A stretch of DNA of 64,000 bases from Flavobacteriales bacterium (GTDB taxonomy: Bacteria; Bacteroidota; Bacteroidia; UBA10329): NCBI GenBank assembly GCA_021739695.1, contig JAIPBM010000001.1, forward strand, positions 124,001 through 188,000, written 5' to 3'. Both the position numbers and the translations under genes were made by a program. Each line of letters begins with the position of its first letter. Within the stretch, counting starts at the first letter, position 1. This document shows, piece by piece, positions 20,318-26,387 of the stretch. The notes beneath the pieces are model-generated. The model saw only the letters and a list, made by a program, of their open reading frames with translations, was not told where the DNA came from and searched no databases.

Positions 20318-21286
20318 ATGGACGGAATTAAAGGTTTACAGAAGCTGTTTGACACAGCCTTGGATGCGTTGGAATTCCCCTCTGAACCCAAGTCGCTTTA
20401 CGAACCTATTTCTTATACGCTTGCCAACGGAGGAAAACGAATGCGTCCGCTGCTGGTTTTGCTTGGATGCCGAATTTTCAGCCGTTCAGTAGAAGAAGCC
20501 ATTCACCCTGCCATCGGCATCGAATTGTTCCACAATTTCACCCTACTGCATGACGACATCATGGATAATGCCCCGCTGCGCAGAGGCAAAAAAACCGTGC
20601 ATGAAAAGTGGAATAACCATGTGGCGATATTAGCGGGAGATGCCACATTCATCATAGCCTATCAGGAACTGATGCAAACGCGGCCAGAAGTGCTGGCAGA
20701 TATTCTCACTGAATTCAACAGAACGGCTCTCGAAATCTGTGAAGGACAACAGCTGGACATGGATTTTGAGACTCACGAAAATGTCTCAATCGATGATTAC
20801 TTGCATATGATCAGTCTGAAAACGGCTGTGCTGCTAGGGGCAAGCCTGAAGATCGGAGCCATCATTGGTGGTGCAAATGCTGAACAGGCGCAACTCCTTT
20901 ATGATTTCGGGTTGAATGCTGGAATTGCTTTCCAATTGCAGGATGATATGCTGGATGTATATGGAGAAAGCCACAAAGTAGGCAAGCAGAAAGGAGGCGA
21001 TATCATCTCAAGCAAAAAGACCTTTCTTCTGTTGAAAGCCATGGAATTGGCTGAAGGAAAAGAATCCAATTCACTCACAAATTGGATTGAAAGTGATTCT
21101 GATTTGGAAAAAGTGAGTGCGATAACGGATATCTACGATCGGCTCGGAATTCGAAAGCTTGCCGAAGAGCGCATGTGGGATTATTACAACAAAGGAATTT
21201 CGAGTTTGGATAAGGTGAAAGGTGACGATGAATGGATTGCAATCCTTCGCGCATTTTCCGAAAAACTCATGCACCGCGAATCGTGA
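20318..21286 (+). CDS. Polyprenyl diphosphate synthase
   Basis: Trans-isoprenyl chain elongation enzyme, 322 residues. The two aspartate-rich motifs are complete: DDIMD at 79-83 and DDMLD at 209-213. GGKRMRP at 38-44 binds isopentenyl diphosphate. Small residues before the first motif do not settle chain length; a geranylgeranyl to octaprenyl range is plausible. The ATG follows the epimerase stop with no gap, so it is the last gene of the exporter-RfbA-epimerase operon. The product could feed menaquinone or a lipid carrier. Confidence 0.92.
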   Translation: MDGIKGLQKLFDTALDALEFPSEPKSLYEPISYTLANGGKRMRPLLVLLGCRIFSRSVEEAIHPAIGIELFHNFTLLHDDIMDNAPLRRGKKTVHEKWNNHVAILAGDATFIIAYQELMQTRPEVLADILTEFNRTALEICEGQQLDMDFETHENVSIDDYLHMISLKTAVLLGASLKIGAIIGGANAEQAQLLYDFGLNAGIAFQLQDDMLDVYGESHKVGKQKGGDIISSKKTFLLLKAMELAEGKESNSLTNWIESDSDLEKVSAITDIYDRLGIRKLAEERMWDYYNKGISSLDKVKGDDEWIAILRAFSEKLMHRES

Positions 21287-21331: not shown

Positions 21332-21712
21332 ATGGATAATCTCCCGCTCTCCACATCCGATTTTGACCGCTACGAACGAAGCGTAGCCTTGCTACAAGAA
21401 GTGGTGGCTCAAATAAACAAGGATTTCCGATTGAACGGATTTGATGTGGCGTTTTCTGGTTCGGGCGATACGGCTTACCAAGAACTATCATCCCAACTGG
21501 CTCCAGTCATCGATTACATGCTCGAACATCAGACCGAGACTTTTTGGAACCTCATTTATAGCATCGACCTGAACGAGAATAAAGTGAAGCGCATTCTGTT
21601 TGGCGATGATGAGAACATTGATGCCATTCACGAACTCACCGACCTCATTCTCAAACGCGAGTTGCAAAAGGTAGTCATCCGCCATTTTTATTCGGGAAAA
21701 CAACTACCTTGA
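21332..21712 (+). CDS. Hypothetical protein of 126 residues
   Basis: A soluble, acidic protein with no signal peptide and no motif I recognise. The sequence alternates helical stretches (RSVALLQEVVAQINKDF, ALTDLILKREL-like). The start at 21332 directly follows the palindromic repeat. Its last 17 codons plus stop (21659-21712) recur at 23505-23558 with the same amino acids but six silent base changes, so this 3' end is one border of an apparent insertion. No function is proposed. Confidence 0.65.
   Translation: MDNLPLSTSDFDRYERSVALLQEVVAQINKDFRLNGFDVAFSGSGDTAYQELSSQLAPVIDYMLEHQTETFWNLIYSIDLNENKVKRILFGDDENIDAIHELTDLILKRELQKVVIRHFYSGKQLP
21659..21712 (+). repeat. 54-bp direct repeat, left copy
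   Basis: The last 17 codons and stop of the 126-residue gene. The right copy at 23505-23558 differs at six bases, all silent. Together they bound a 1.8-kb two-gene islet, like the attachment repeats of elements that restore a target gene's 3' end. Confidence 0.75.
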
Positions 21713-21792
21713 ATTTTCGTTCCCTGTTCCATTGATTTGCGCTCAAATTAAACCATTGGGAGAGACGTCTGTCTTACACCAAATCCTCACTC

Positions 21793-22245
21793 ATGAAAAC
21801 CCCCATTTCTATCCTTATATTAGTTATTATCTGTACGTTGAGCCATGCTCAGACCAAAGTGATTGCCCACAAAAGTCATAGTGGGTCAAATCATTCATTC
21901 GCAAAGGCTTATCACCATAATTTGTTCGAAATAAACGATTCGAACTTTGGCTTAGGCCCCATGCCATACCGAATAACCCTCCTTGATACAGTTGTCGCGG
22001 TAAATGATACTACTACTTTGCTACGGTTTAGGGCATCAATGGATTATTTTACCAAAGAAAAAGAACCTGACTATACGGATTTAGTGGAATTAGAATTCGA
22101 ATCTATGATTGACACCATAGTTAACGATACGGTGTTTACAAGAAAAAAACCTCTAAGCATTATAAAGGCTATAGATCAGCATCGTTACCCAATCTTGTTC
22201 AGAAACCCAATTGAGGAGGTTGTATTTATCGGGTTTAAGGAATGA
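21793..22245 (+). CDS. Exported hypothetical protein, 150 residues
   Basis: Begins with a clear signal peptide (hydrophobic residues 5-17, cut near SHAQ). The mature part is rich in Asp, Thr and His and shows no family I recognise. It ends with a 4-base ATGA overlap with the next membrane-protein gene, so the two are probably made together. Both lie between the 54-bp direct repeats and appear more AT-rich than the neighbouring operons. No function is proposed. Confidence 0.6.
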   Translation: MKTPISILILVIICTLSHAQTKVIAHKSHSGSNHSFAKAYHHNLFEINDSNFGLGPMPYRITLLDTVVAVNDTTTLLRFRASMDYFTKEKEPDYTDLVELEFESMIDTIVNDTVFTRKKPLSIIKAIDQHRYPILFRNPIEEVVFIGFKE

Positions 22246-23453
22246 ATCATATTGGAACTACGGCACACCGATCACTGCTGTTTTTCGCGCTTTTCGGAGT
22301 ACTCTTTATTCCATTTTCCTTCAGCACTTTTCGGTTTCAAACAGAACTGACCCGATACATTTTTCAAGACTTAATTCTTTTTGCCTCACGGCATTTTGAA
22401 ATTCTTGATGTGACCAATCCTGAGATCTCCTCGGATTCCGCTGCGCTGTACTGGTTGTTTCTAATGCTATTGATTTTAGCTGTCATCGCGACAACCGTTC
22501 TCTCATTTTTCACGTTCGAGGAAAAGCAGCTTCAACGAATGTTCGGGGCAATCCAGATTATCTTGACCTACTATCTATCCGTTATAATGTTGAAGTACGG
22601 TTTTGACAAGATTTTTGGTATTCAATTCTACATCCCCGAGCCAAACACGTTGTACACCCCATTAGGAATGCTCGATAGGGACATTGCGTTTTGGAGCGTA
22701 ATGGGAACATCATATTCCTACAGTCTTTTCATGGGAATGATGGAAGTTGTACCATCTCTCATGTTATGGTTCAGGAGAACTAGAATCTTGGGAATTATTA
22801 TTCTACTTGGTGTCCTTACTCATGTAGTTTTCGTCAATCTCTGTTTCGATATTTCGGTAAAGCTGTTCTCGTCATTTCTGTTACTCCAGTGTTTCATATT
22901 GCTTATACCTCATTTTAAATCTCTGGCTCGGTTTCTTATTCTGAAAAAGGCGGCTGTTTTGTTCAGCTTCTCAGGTATTGATATCGTTAAATCAAGAAAG
23001 GTTCGCTATGCGATAAAAACCACTGTGCTGATCCTTATCTCTTTCGAATCGATTTATCCTCATATCGAAAACGGGCATTCTCATAATGCAAATCAAATTG
23101 TGGACGGCTTGCATGGAGCTTATGAAATTGTCAAAATCGAATCAGATTCTGACAATACTAATTTGCCAAACATGAAACGGTTTTTCGTTCATCGTTCCAG
23201 CTACCTGATTTTTCAATATCAGGATGACTCAATGGAGGATTATCGCTTGGAAGCTTCCCAAAGCAGCAACACCCTGATATTGACCGATTATGATGGGCAG
23301 ATGAGGATATTCCATTATCAGTACTCTACCGTTTCTGATACTTTGGAACTTAAGTCAAACGAACTAGGTATCACAATCTATTCTAAACCAATACCATGGC
23401 ATGAACTGCCAATACTCCAACCGCTGTTTCATTTCACGGTAGATGAAATTTGA
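22242..23453 (+). CDS. Multi-pass membrane protein, DoxX-like N-terminal half
   Basis: A 403-residue protein with about seven hydrophobic segments in residues 12-280 (for example 68-90, 100-120, 150-170, 175-200 and 205-225). A soluble C-terminal domain of about 120 residues follows. The motif YYLSVIMLKYGFDKIFGIQF resembles the DoxX/SURF4-type quinone-reducing membrane families, but the match is loose. The C-terminal part (HRSSYLIFQYQDD..DYRLE) looks like a small beta domain, perhaps outside the cell. It is coupled to the upstream exported protein. Membership of the islet between direct repeats suggests an accessory function. Confidence 0.6.
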   Translation: MNHIGTTAHRSLLFFALFGVLFIPFSFSTFRFQTELTRYIFQDLILFASRHFEILDVTNPEISSDSAALYWLFLMLLILAVIATTVLSFFTFEEKQLQRMFGAIQIILTYYLSVIMLKYGFDKIFGIQFYIPEPNTLYTPLGMLDRDIAFWSVMGTSYSYSLFMGMMEVVPSLMLWFRRTRILGIIILLGVLTHVVFVNLCFDISVKLFSSFLLLQCFILLIPHFKSLARFLILKKAAVLFSFSGIDIVKSRKVRYAIKTTVLILISFESIYPHIENGHSHNANQIVDGLHGAYEIVKIESDSDNTNLPNMKRFFVHRSSYLIFQYQDDSMEDYRLEASQSSNTLILTDYDGQMRIFHYQYSTVSDTLELKSNELGITIYSKPIPWHELPILQPLFHFTVDEI

Positions 23454-23504
23454 TTACCAGTTCAAAATAGGCGATTGCAACACATATGCGTGTGATTGGG
23501 CGGG

Positions 23505-23558
23505 GAATTACAAAAGGTGGTCATCCGTCATTTTTATTCGGGAAAACAACTCCCATGA
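23505..23558 (+). repeat. 54-bp direct repeat, right copy (remnant of a gene 3' end)
   Basis: Encodes the same 17 C-terminal residues plus stop as the left copy at 21659-21712. The open frame starts only three codons earlier, after a TGA, so it is a remnant and not a gene. Differences are silent third-position (or Leu first-position) changes, so this copy diverged while under coding selection or came from another strain. Confidence 0.75.
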
Positions 23559-23608
23559 AAATGCTGTTAAGCTGTTGGTAACCTGTGCTTAACCCGAAGC
23601 GATAATCT

Positions 23609-23616
23609 TATCTTTG
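23609..23616 (+). promoter_or_regulatory. Promoter -7 box of sucA
   Basis: TATCTTTG, an exact TAnnTTTG match, 35 nt before the sucA ATG. No convincing -33 TTTG at normal spacing. Confidence 0.5.
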
Positions 23617-23651
23617 CGCAAACTTTCAGAATAGGTACCGTCCCCGAACAA

Positions 23652-26387
23652 ATGGATAAGTTCTCTTACCTCTCTAACATGGATGTCTCTGCAGTAGAAC
23701 ATCTCTATCAATCTTACAAATCCGAACCATCATCTGTAAGCACAGATTGGCAGCAATTTTTTGCTGGTTTCGACTTTGCGGAACAGCTTTATGACCAAGA
23801 CGATGCGTCTTTTGGTATTCCGGCCAATGTGAAGAAGGAGTTCGATGTGATCAACCTTATTGATGGTTATCGAAAGAACGGTCACTTGTTTACCCGAACA
23901 AATCCAGTTCGCGAACGAAGAAAATATGCTCCAACGCTGGCCAAAGAGAATTTTGAGCTTCGCGATGCCGATCTTGAAACCACGTTCCGCGCGGGGACAA
24001 TGATCGGAATCGGTCCGGCCACGTTGCGCCAGATCATCGAACATTTGGATGCTACCTATTGCCAAAGCATTGGGGTAGAATACATGTATATGCGAAGGCC
24101 CGAAGTGGTTGAGTGGATGCAGAAAATGTTGGAATCGAACCGAAATCAACCTAATTTCTCGTTGGAAGAGAAAAAGCAGGTGCTGAAGAAATTGAGCCAA
24201 GCTGTGCTTTTCGAAGAGTTTCTTGGAAAGAAATTCACGGGACAAAAACGCTTTTCGTTAGAAGGTGCAGAATCGCTGATTCCTGCCTTGGATATGGTGG
24301 TTGAGGAAGGTGCCGATCTTGGAATTGAGGAATTTGTGATAGGAATGGCGCACCGTGGACGTTTGAACGTGCTGGCCAACATTCTGAATAAGACCTACAA
24401 AGAGATCTTCTCCGAATTTGAAGGGAAAGATTACGAAGATGCAGACATTGAAGGAGACGTGAAGTACCACATGGGCTACACTTCGTTCATGACCTGCGAT
24501 AATGGCAAGGATGTGAAGATGAATCTTTGCCCAAACCCATCACATCTTGAAGCTGTTGGTCCTGTTGTAGAAGGAATTTCTCGCGCTAAGATCGACCGTA
24601 AATTCAAGGGCGATAACAGCAAACTGTGTTCAATTCTTATTCATGGCGATGCGGCAATAGCTGGTCAAGGCGTTGTTTACGAAGTGGTGCAAATGGCCAA
24701 ATTGGATGGCTATAAAACAGGCGGAACAATCCATATTGTCATCAACAACCAAGTTGGTTTTACCACCAACTACACCGATGGCCGTTCAAGTATCTATTGC
24801 ACCGATGTGGCCAAAGTGACACATTCACCGGTTTTCCACGTGAATGGAGACGATGCTGAAGCTGTTTCGCACACCATGCGTATGGCCATGAAATTCCGTC
24901 AGCATTTCAAAGGAGATGTGTTTGTGGATCTGCTTTGCTACCGAAAATACGGTCACAACGAAGGTGATGAACCACGATTCACGCAACCGAAACTGTACGA
25001 CATCATTGCCAAACATGAGAATCCACTGACGATTTACGCGCAAAAACTCACCTCTTCGGGGTTGGTTGGTGCCGATCTGGTCAAGAGTATGGAGCAGGAT
25101 TTCAGCGATATGCTTCAAGAACGTTTGATAGAGGCAAAAGAAATTCAGAAAGCCACAGTCACCCAATTTTTGGAAGACACTTGGAAAGGTTATCGCTTTG
25201 CCAAGAAGGAAGATTTTGAGTTTTCCATTGAAACAGGCGTAAATGAAAATACGCTGAAGGAGATTTCCAGAGTGCTGACAACTGTTCCGAAAGAGATCAA
25301 GGTTTTCCGAAAAATGCAGAAGATCCTGAAAGACCGTGAAGACATGGTTTTTGAAACGGACAAGTTGGATTGGGGAATGGCTGAATTGCTTGCCTATGGT
25401 TCGCTGCTAAAAGAAGGTCACGAAGTGCGTATTTCAGGTCAAGATGTGGAACGCGGAACATTTTCTCACCGCCATGCTGTGCTTATCGTTGAAGAGTCTG
25501 GACAAGAATACGTTCCGCTCGATCACCTAGGCGAAGGCCAAGGCGAATTCAACATTTTCAACTCGTTCCTTTCGGAATATGCCGTACTCGGGTTTGATTA
25601 CGGTTACGCTTTCGGATGCCCTAATTGCCTACCGATTTGGGAAGCGCAGTTCGGAGATTTCAACAATGGAGCGCAGATCATCATCGACCAGTTCATTTCT
25701 TCTGCTGAGGAGAAATGGAAAGGAATGAACGGAATCGTCATGCTTCTTCCGCACGGATACGAAGGCATGGGAGCGGAGCACAGCAGCGCACGTATGGAAC
25801 GTTTCCTTATGCTTTGTGCAGACGATAACATGCAAATCGTAAACTGCTCTACGCCTGCCAACTTCTTCCACGTGCTGAGACGACAGATGAAGCGCGAATT
25901 CCGCAAACCGTTAGTGGTTTTCACACCGAAGAGTCTACTTCGTCATCCACGTTGCGTTTCATCGCTGAAAGAACTGGCCACTGGCGGTTTCCAAGAAGTG
26001 ATAGATGATGTAACTGCTGATGCCAAGAAAGTGACTCGCGTACTGCTTTGCAGCGGAAAAGTATATTACGATCTGCTTGAGAAGAAAGAAGAACTGAATG
26101 CAGAAGAAGTGGCCATCGTTCGTTTAGAACAATTGGATCCATTGCCACGCAAGCAAATTGCCAAACTTCAGGAGAAATACAGCAACGCCAAATGGGTTTG
26201 GGTACAAGAAGAACCTGCAAACATGGGTGCTTGGGCTCACTTACTGCGTAAACTACGCCAAGTGAATCTTGAACTCGTTTCGCGCCCATCTTCAGGCGCT
26301 CCGGCCACAGGATCTGGCCAACGCCATAGAGCAGAACAAGCAAAATTGATGAATCAAGCGTTTGCCGATATTGCGGTGACCGCTTAA
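23652..26387 (+). CDS. sucA: 2-oxoglutarate dehydrogenase E1 component
   Basis: Thiamine diphosphate-dependent decarboxylase of the TCA-cycle oxoglutarate dehydrogenase complex. The 911 residues match the family length. The N-terminus (YLSNMDVSAVEHLYQSYKSEP, then VSTDWQQFF) is the E2-binding segment seen in SucA proteins. Active-site and cofactor motifs follow: GMAHRGRLNVLAN, HLEAVGPVVEG, and the ThDP motif IHGDAAIAGQGVVYE, then GHNEGDEP. The C-terminal half has HGYEGMGAEHSSARMERFL. It is followed 20 bp later by sucB. A consensus promoter box precedes it. Confidence 0.97.
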   Translation: MDKFSYLSNMDVSAVEHLYQSYKSEPSSVSTDWQQFFAGFDFAEQLYDQDDASFGIPANVKKEFDVINLIDGYRKNGHLFTRTNPVRERRKYAPTLAKENFELRDADLETTFRAGTMIGIGPATLRQIIEHLDATYCQSIGVEYMYMRRPEVVEWMQKMLESNRNQPNFSLEEKKQVLKKLSQAVLFEEFLGKKFTGQKRFSLEGAESLIPALDMVVEEGADLGIEEFVIGMAHRGRLNVLANILNKTYKEIFSEFEGKDYEDADIEGDVKYHMGYTSFMTCDNGKDVKMNLCPNPSHLEAVGPVVEGISRAKIDRKFKGDNSKLCSILIHGDAAIAGQGVVYEVVQMAKLDGYKTGGTIHIVINNQVGFTTNYTDGRSSIYCTDVAKVTHSPVFHVNGDDAEAVSHTMRMAMKFRQHFKGDVFVDLLCYRKYGHNEGDEPRFTQPKLYDIIAKHENPLTIYAQKLTSSGLVGADLVKSMEQDFSDMLQERLIEAKEIQKATVTQFLEDTWKGYRFAKKEDFEFSIETGVNENTLKEISRVLTTVPKEIKVFRKMQKILKDREDMVFETDKLDWGMAELLAYGSLLKEGHEVRISGQDVERGTFSHRHAVLIVEESGQEYVPLDHLGEGQGEFNIFNSFLSEYAVLGFDYGYAFGCPNCLPIWEAQFGDFNNGAQIIIDQFISSAEEKWKGMNGIVMLLPHGYEGMGAEHSSARMERFLMLCADDNMQIVNCSTPANFFHVLRRQMKREFRKPLVVFTPKSLLRHPRCVSSLKELATGGFQEVIDDVTADAKKVTRVLLCSGKVYYDLLEKKEELNAEEVAIVRLEQLDPLPRKQIAKLQEKYSNAKWVWVQEEPANMGAWAHLLRKLRQVNLELVSRPSSGAPATGSGQRHRAEQAKLMNQAFADIAVTA

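Follow-up and report, generated by a model that had tools for sequence, protein, structure and literature searches.

A two-gene islet between p126 and sucA in a Flavobacteriales genome is flanked by silently diverged copies of the p126 3′ tail

We analysed a 64,000-nt window of DNA from Flavobacteriales bacterium (GTDB lineage Bacteria; Bacteroidota; Bacteroidia; UBA10329), comprising positions 124,001 to 188,000 of contig JAIPBM010000001.1 in assembly GCA_021739695.1, and compared the locus described here in eight congeners besides this genome (G000), nine in total. A conserved gene for a 126-amino acid protein, which we denote p126, is separated by a two-gene islet from the gene that we take, from its sequence, the gene order and general knowledge, to be sucA. 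A second copy of the p126 3′ tail stands on the far side of the islet (Table 1). The p126 protein matched no Pfam family; its C terminus is nearly invariant (LTDLI..RELQKVVIR) and the gene is widespread in Bacteroidia. The polyprenyl synthetase encoded upstream diverges faster among congeners (57–71% amino acid identity) than its rmlA and rmlB-like neighbours (75–98%).

Table 1. Features of the p126–sucA locus, in coordinates of the 64,000-nt window.
Feature	Coordinates	Strand	Evidence or remarks
Polyprenyl synthetase gene	20318–21286	+	Pfam PF00348, E 2.6e-74; synteny in genus; upstream neighbour of p126
p126, 126-aa protein, ending in tail copy 1	21332–21712	+	Conserved across Bacteroidia; sucA often follows directly
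Tail copy 1 (last 17 codons of p126, stop, one base)	21659–21713	+	Repeat alignment
Islet	21713–23504		GC 39.6% (contig, 44.9%); not present in eight congeners
Exported 150-aa protein, AQTK-IAxxSHSG family	21793–22245	+	Conserved motif after a signal peptide; homologues beside the membrane-protein gene in G052, G108, G116, G176 and G388
403-aa membrane protein	22242–23453	+	Homologues 31–37% identical in other families; predicted DoxX-like helices and C-terminal eight-strand β barrel
Tail copy 2 (p126 3′ tail without the gene)	23505–23559	+	Repeat alignment; native distance from sucA
Native p126–sucA spacer, presumed sucA promoter TATCTTTG	23560–23651	+	Homologous to spacer of empty-site congeners
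sucA (presumably 2-oxoglutarate dehydrogenase E1), downstream anchor	23652–26387	+	Sequence and gene order

The repeat unit consists of the final 17 codons of p126 with the stop (54 nt) and one extra base. Its two 55-nt copies are direct repeats at an offset of 1,846 nt and align without gaps at 49 of 55 positions; the longest exact block is 23 nt, located in the middle of the repeat, and the homology ends sharply at 23505. On the 298-kb contig, the second-best match of the tail 55-mer is 31/55 and random 55-mers match elsewhere at 40/55 or less (median 30). When the DNA upstream of sucA was shuffled, no shuffle approached the match of copy 2. Chance matches on the contig thus fall far below 49/55, and the repeat is real. 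No further scar of this type was found on the contig (298 kb of the 4.24-Mb genome scanned), where the other repeat matches were rejected as scars, being internally repetitive proteins, tandem paralogues and a tRNA-like inverted match.

The six mismatches all lie at third codon positions (GAG/GAA, TTG/TTA, GTA/GTG, CGC/CGT, CTA/CTC and CCT/CCA) and every one is silent; the TGA stop is intact in each copy and there is no indel. A sequence-only reading of the window had described 17 codons and a stop repeated with six silent differences, and the alignment confirms it. Of random changes across the 51 tail bases, about 25% are silent, and free drift would give six silent changes out of six with p of about 3e-4 if all six arose in the drifting copy, or about 0.016 if three did. 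This pattern, with the stop kept and no indel, argues that neither copy has long been adrift as an orphan. The two tails are also nearer each other than to any congener tail, including both of those in G004, a congener with two p126 genes. Silent-only differences and mutual closeness together suggest that both tails were recently part of working genes within one species complex. The earlier reading had allowed either divergence while both copies were selected or the arrival of one from another strain; divergence of the two tails while both were selected stands, one of them probably stemming from another strain.

Empty sites, which the same reading had proposed to look for in relatives, are present in congeners. 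G002, G008, G006 and G005 each carry a single p126 followed by roughly 90–120 bp (about 95) and then sucA. The gap in G007 is longer and consists of short-repeat DNA, so the empty sites number four or five; this spacer (L037:5690-6085) is enlarged by a GC-rich tandem repeat with a unit of roughly 36–38 nt (GCAGGTGCATCCGTGCAAGTGCACGGG...). Many other Bacteroidia also have sucA immediately after p126 and, as the adjacency is seen in them and in the congeners, it is ancestral. The native spacer, with its conserved TATCTTTG box, aligns with the 92 bp that follow copy 2 but not with the DNA that follows copy 1, which identifies copy 2 as the resident 3′ end, still in place. The newcomers are therefore the islet and, most likely, the tail now on p126.

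The two islet genes overlap by 4 nt (ATGA, 22242–22245), in agreement with the earlier description of exported- and membrane-protein genes coupled by overlap. The signal peptide of the 150-aa protein ends, as read by eye, in ...TLSHA-QT. By GC content, the exported-protein gene ranks among the bottom 1% of the genes of the contig, and the membrane-protein gene among the bottom 4%. The pair was not found in the eight congeners, which gave distant, unpaired matches only, and it is present at other sites in five genomes of other Bacteroidia families (those named in Table 1). In these five, the homologue of the membrane protein adjoins one or two secreted proteins that start AQTK-IAxxSHSG; the gene for the SHSG exported protein forms a tandem pair beside the membrane-protein gene in G176 and G388 (L163:419-1472; L172:2748-3692). 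PHROGs, PADLOC, Rfam and PDB sequences gave no matches and no viral contig carries the pair, plasmids gave distant matches only (24–30% identity), and the edge sequences of the islet recur in the genus only as p126 itself and as chance matches. The pair is a portable functional module, and the 298-kb contig carries no integrase.

The 403-aa protein itself has no Pfam match and its homologues match DoxX/MauE weakly, at 15.8–18.9 bits against a Pfam DoxX cut-off of 23.6, and we do not assign it to the DoxX family. A structure model (pLDDT 72.6) shows a helix bundle followed by a C-terminal eight-strand barrel, which in Foldseek weakly resembles lipocalin-like folds (best E 0.02). We would tentatively expect an envelope role for the pair, with the exported protein as a partner of the membrane protein.

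We propose that the islet is a non-mobile portable module that was brought in by allelic import from a sister lineage, through one-sided homologous and illegitimate recombination, and that the resident tail was left behind as a scar; we rate this reading at about an even chance. In the donor, p126 would have been followed by the module in place of sucA. The incoming DNA would have paired by homology with the resident p126, or with genes further upstream, and crossed over there, while its other end, lacking homology, would have become attached by an illegitimate joint within the resident p126, 54 bp short of its 3′ end. The product would be a whole p126 with the donor tail (copy 1), the module, and the resident tail (copy 2) on the native spacer and promoter of sucA. 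Such a joint may have been tolerable because p126 remained whole and sucA kept the promoter within its 95-bp spacer. Copy 1 would thus represent the donor allele, the right junction would be the illegitimate one, and the donor would be a congener. Import is the simplest account, explaining in one step the whole p126, the foreign module, the resident tail in place and the silent divergence. ComEC, a DNA-uptake channel, is encoded in eight of the nine genomes, which permits DNA uptake without being proof of competence. Nucleotide identity in the upstream genes gave no signal of recent exchange, because silent sites are saturated between species.

Recombination that is homologous at one end and illegitimate at the other has been described (PMC3240628; PMC5361080); it is termed homology-facilitated illegitimate recombination and was first shown in three naturally competent species, with E. 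coli conjugation as a further setting (PMC3240628). The illegitimate joint in its products usually has a few bases of microhomology. As there, the insert here is foreign, absent from relatives and located at an otherwise conserved junction; it would be anchored by homology on one side only, where the copy 1 tail is a diverged allele, and would need no recombinase. In contrast to those cases, the joint would lie inside the anchor gene, the resident tail is duplicated, and the event is known from its footprint alone. The effector/immunity arrays of the Vibrio cholerae type VI secretion system (T6SS; PMC5361080) and orphan Rhs tails are similar in that the upstream anchor through which a new module enters is conserved and the resident 3′ part is shifted downstream. 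The present locus differs from them in having no toxin–immunity relation and in that a conserved gene's 54-bp tail, not a selected immunity gene, was displaced. Small variable segments, or microdiversity loci, are likewise short variable stretches ascribed to illegitimate recombination and were found in one study to be especially abundant in membrane-protein genes (PMC2884548); unlike them, the p126 locus has a diverged coding repeat at its edge that reveals the direction and order of events. Read as an import, the locus is a clear, if rather unexceptional, case of a process already known. When a coding tail is displaced and differs only silently, it forms a footprint that shows which side is resident, points to a working allele of a close relative as the source and indicates that no recombinase is needed, and such footprints could be used for counting integrase-free gene gain in uncultured Bacteroidota.

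A restored 3′ end with the displaced original end on the far side is also the layout that integrative elements leave, and the sequence-only reading had pointed to elements that target gene 3′ ends. On this account, a small, degenerate element carrying its own p126 3′ end would have entered p126 around codon 110 and left the gene restored, with the integrase of the element since lost or acting in trans. Known elements do swap a gene end for a diverged, in-frame version, as dusA islands and SXT at prfC do (PMC8409611), and a PF00589 search found ten tyrosine recombinases in the genome. None of these ten lies on the 298-kb contig and the ORFs of the islet hold no integrase, as the earlier reading had rightly said. 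The longest identical block in the repeat is the mid-repeat one of 23 nt, other inserts between p126 and sucA show no evident integrase or duplicated tail when their ORFs are read, and the viral contigs hold no such module. That reading had also proposed looking for the same islet at other 3′ ends, and in the five genomes that carry the pair elsewhere its immediate flanks show no second copy of the 3′ end of an adjacent gene. The dusA islands and SXT, moreover, act at 5′ ends, and the p126 site has neither an integrase nor a recurring element. We conclude that targeting of the p126 3′ end by an element is unsupported and regard the account as improbable.

The two p126 genes of G004 bear on another explanation, in which an old duplication of p126 left two selected copies that diverged silently, with the module already lying or later landing between them, before a recent deletion left no more than the final 54 bp of the copy on the sucA side. 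The G004 genes are full length, share 87% DNA and 97% protein identity and are sisters in the tree; the divergence between them resembles that between the tails described here (88% identity). They belong to a shared block of roughly 735 bp that extends into the polyprenyl synthetase gene, covering its 3′ third, and they flank a chromosome break (L035:7067-8467; L034:6902-7758), their homology ending a few bases past the p126 stop. The gene order of our contig from 135.6 to 145.7 kb stops in G004 exactly after the first copy. On the other G004 contig, the order from sucA on is kept; next come an insert of 4.1 kb made up of genes for secreted proteins, the second copy with the 3′ third of the synthetase gene and, after it, the region that lies at 235 kb here. 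A match to a decayed tail before sucA in G004 was not above chance. The G004 copies may include a strain mixture, as this is a metagenome assembly with 4% contamination. Because p126 precedes other genes in G004, donors with p126 beside something else do exist.

Decayed p126 tails before sucA in G001, and probably in G003, would also fit an old duplication. However, no genome has two copies around the module: tandem full-length copies on either side of the islet, which the sequence-only reading had named as its refutation, were not found, and only G004 has two, at a different break, so that the duplication account is weakened but not dead. Each of copies 1 and 2 resembles the other more than it does either G004 copy, which leaves a shared ancient duplication unsupported. 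The account also demands long selection on two copies followed by a very recent truncation without any non-silent change. We consider it unlikely, if a serious contender, and the choice of import over it rests on parsimony.

Fusion of two strains' versions of the locus during assembly would give a similar picture, and the genome is in 53 contigs, with the nameable congeners being metagenome-assembled. We consider such an artefact very unlikely, since the contig is 298 kb long with native gene order on both sides, contamination is 0.16%, no exact repeat block longer than 23 nt is available to mis-join, and the module is a coherent, overlapping gene pair.

Counting G000, the p126–sucA junction is broken in four of the nine congeners. 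In G001, a gene that we take from reading its sequence to be arsC, a short ORF and a decayed p126 tail stand, in that order, ahead of sucA (L154:3520-3656). This tail is identical at 22 of 24 nt, a match that none of 1,000 shuffles equalled, and it has lost its stop and has changed codons. In G003, what we likewise read as murI is followed by a probable remnant of the p126 tail and then by sucA (L155:1413-1600, reverse strand). This remnant is weaker than that of G001, as 6 of 1,000 shuffles were as good, yet its distance to sucA is the same. The persistence of tails before sucA in G000, G001 and perhaps G003 might mean that the tail has a function for sucA, as an element in DNA or RNA, and is repeated for that reason. 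We find this extremely unlikely: the changes are codon-silent in G000, but the G001 and G003 tails have lost the stop and the sequence, it is the spacer and not the tail that holds the presumed promoter, no Rfam family is matched, and G004 has no tail there. It is also conceivable, although we doubt it strongly, that the 3′ end of p126 is a breakpoint hot spot of the genus, where an unrecognised integrase-free process would leave diverged, silently evolving copies or tails on both sides of inserts and breaks (1.8 kb in G000, large-scale in G004, and also in G001 and perhaps G003). Recurrent breaks at this one junction make it a natural test case.
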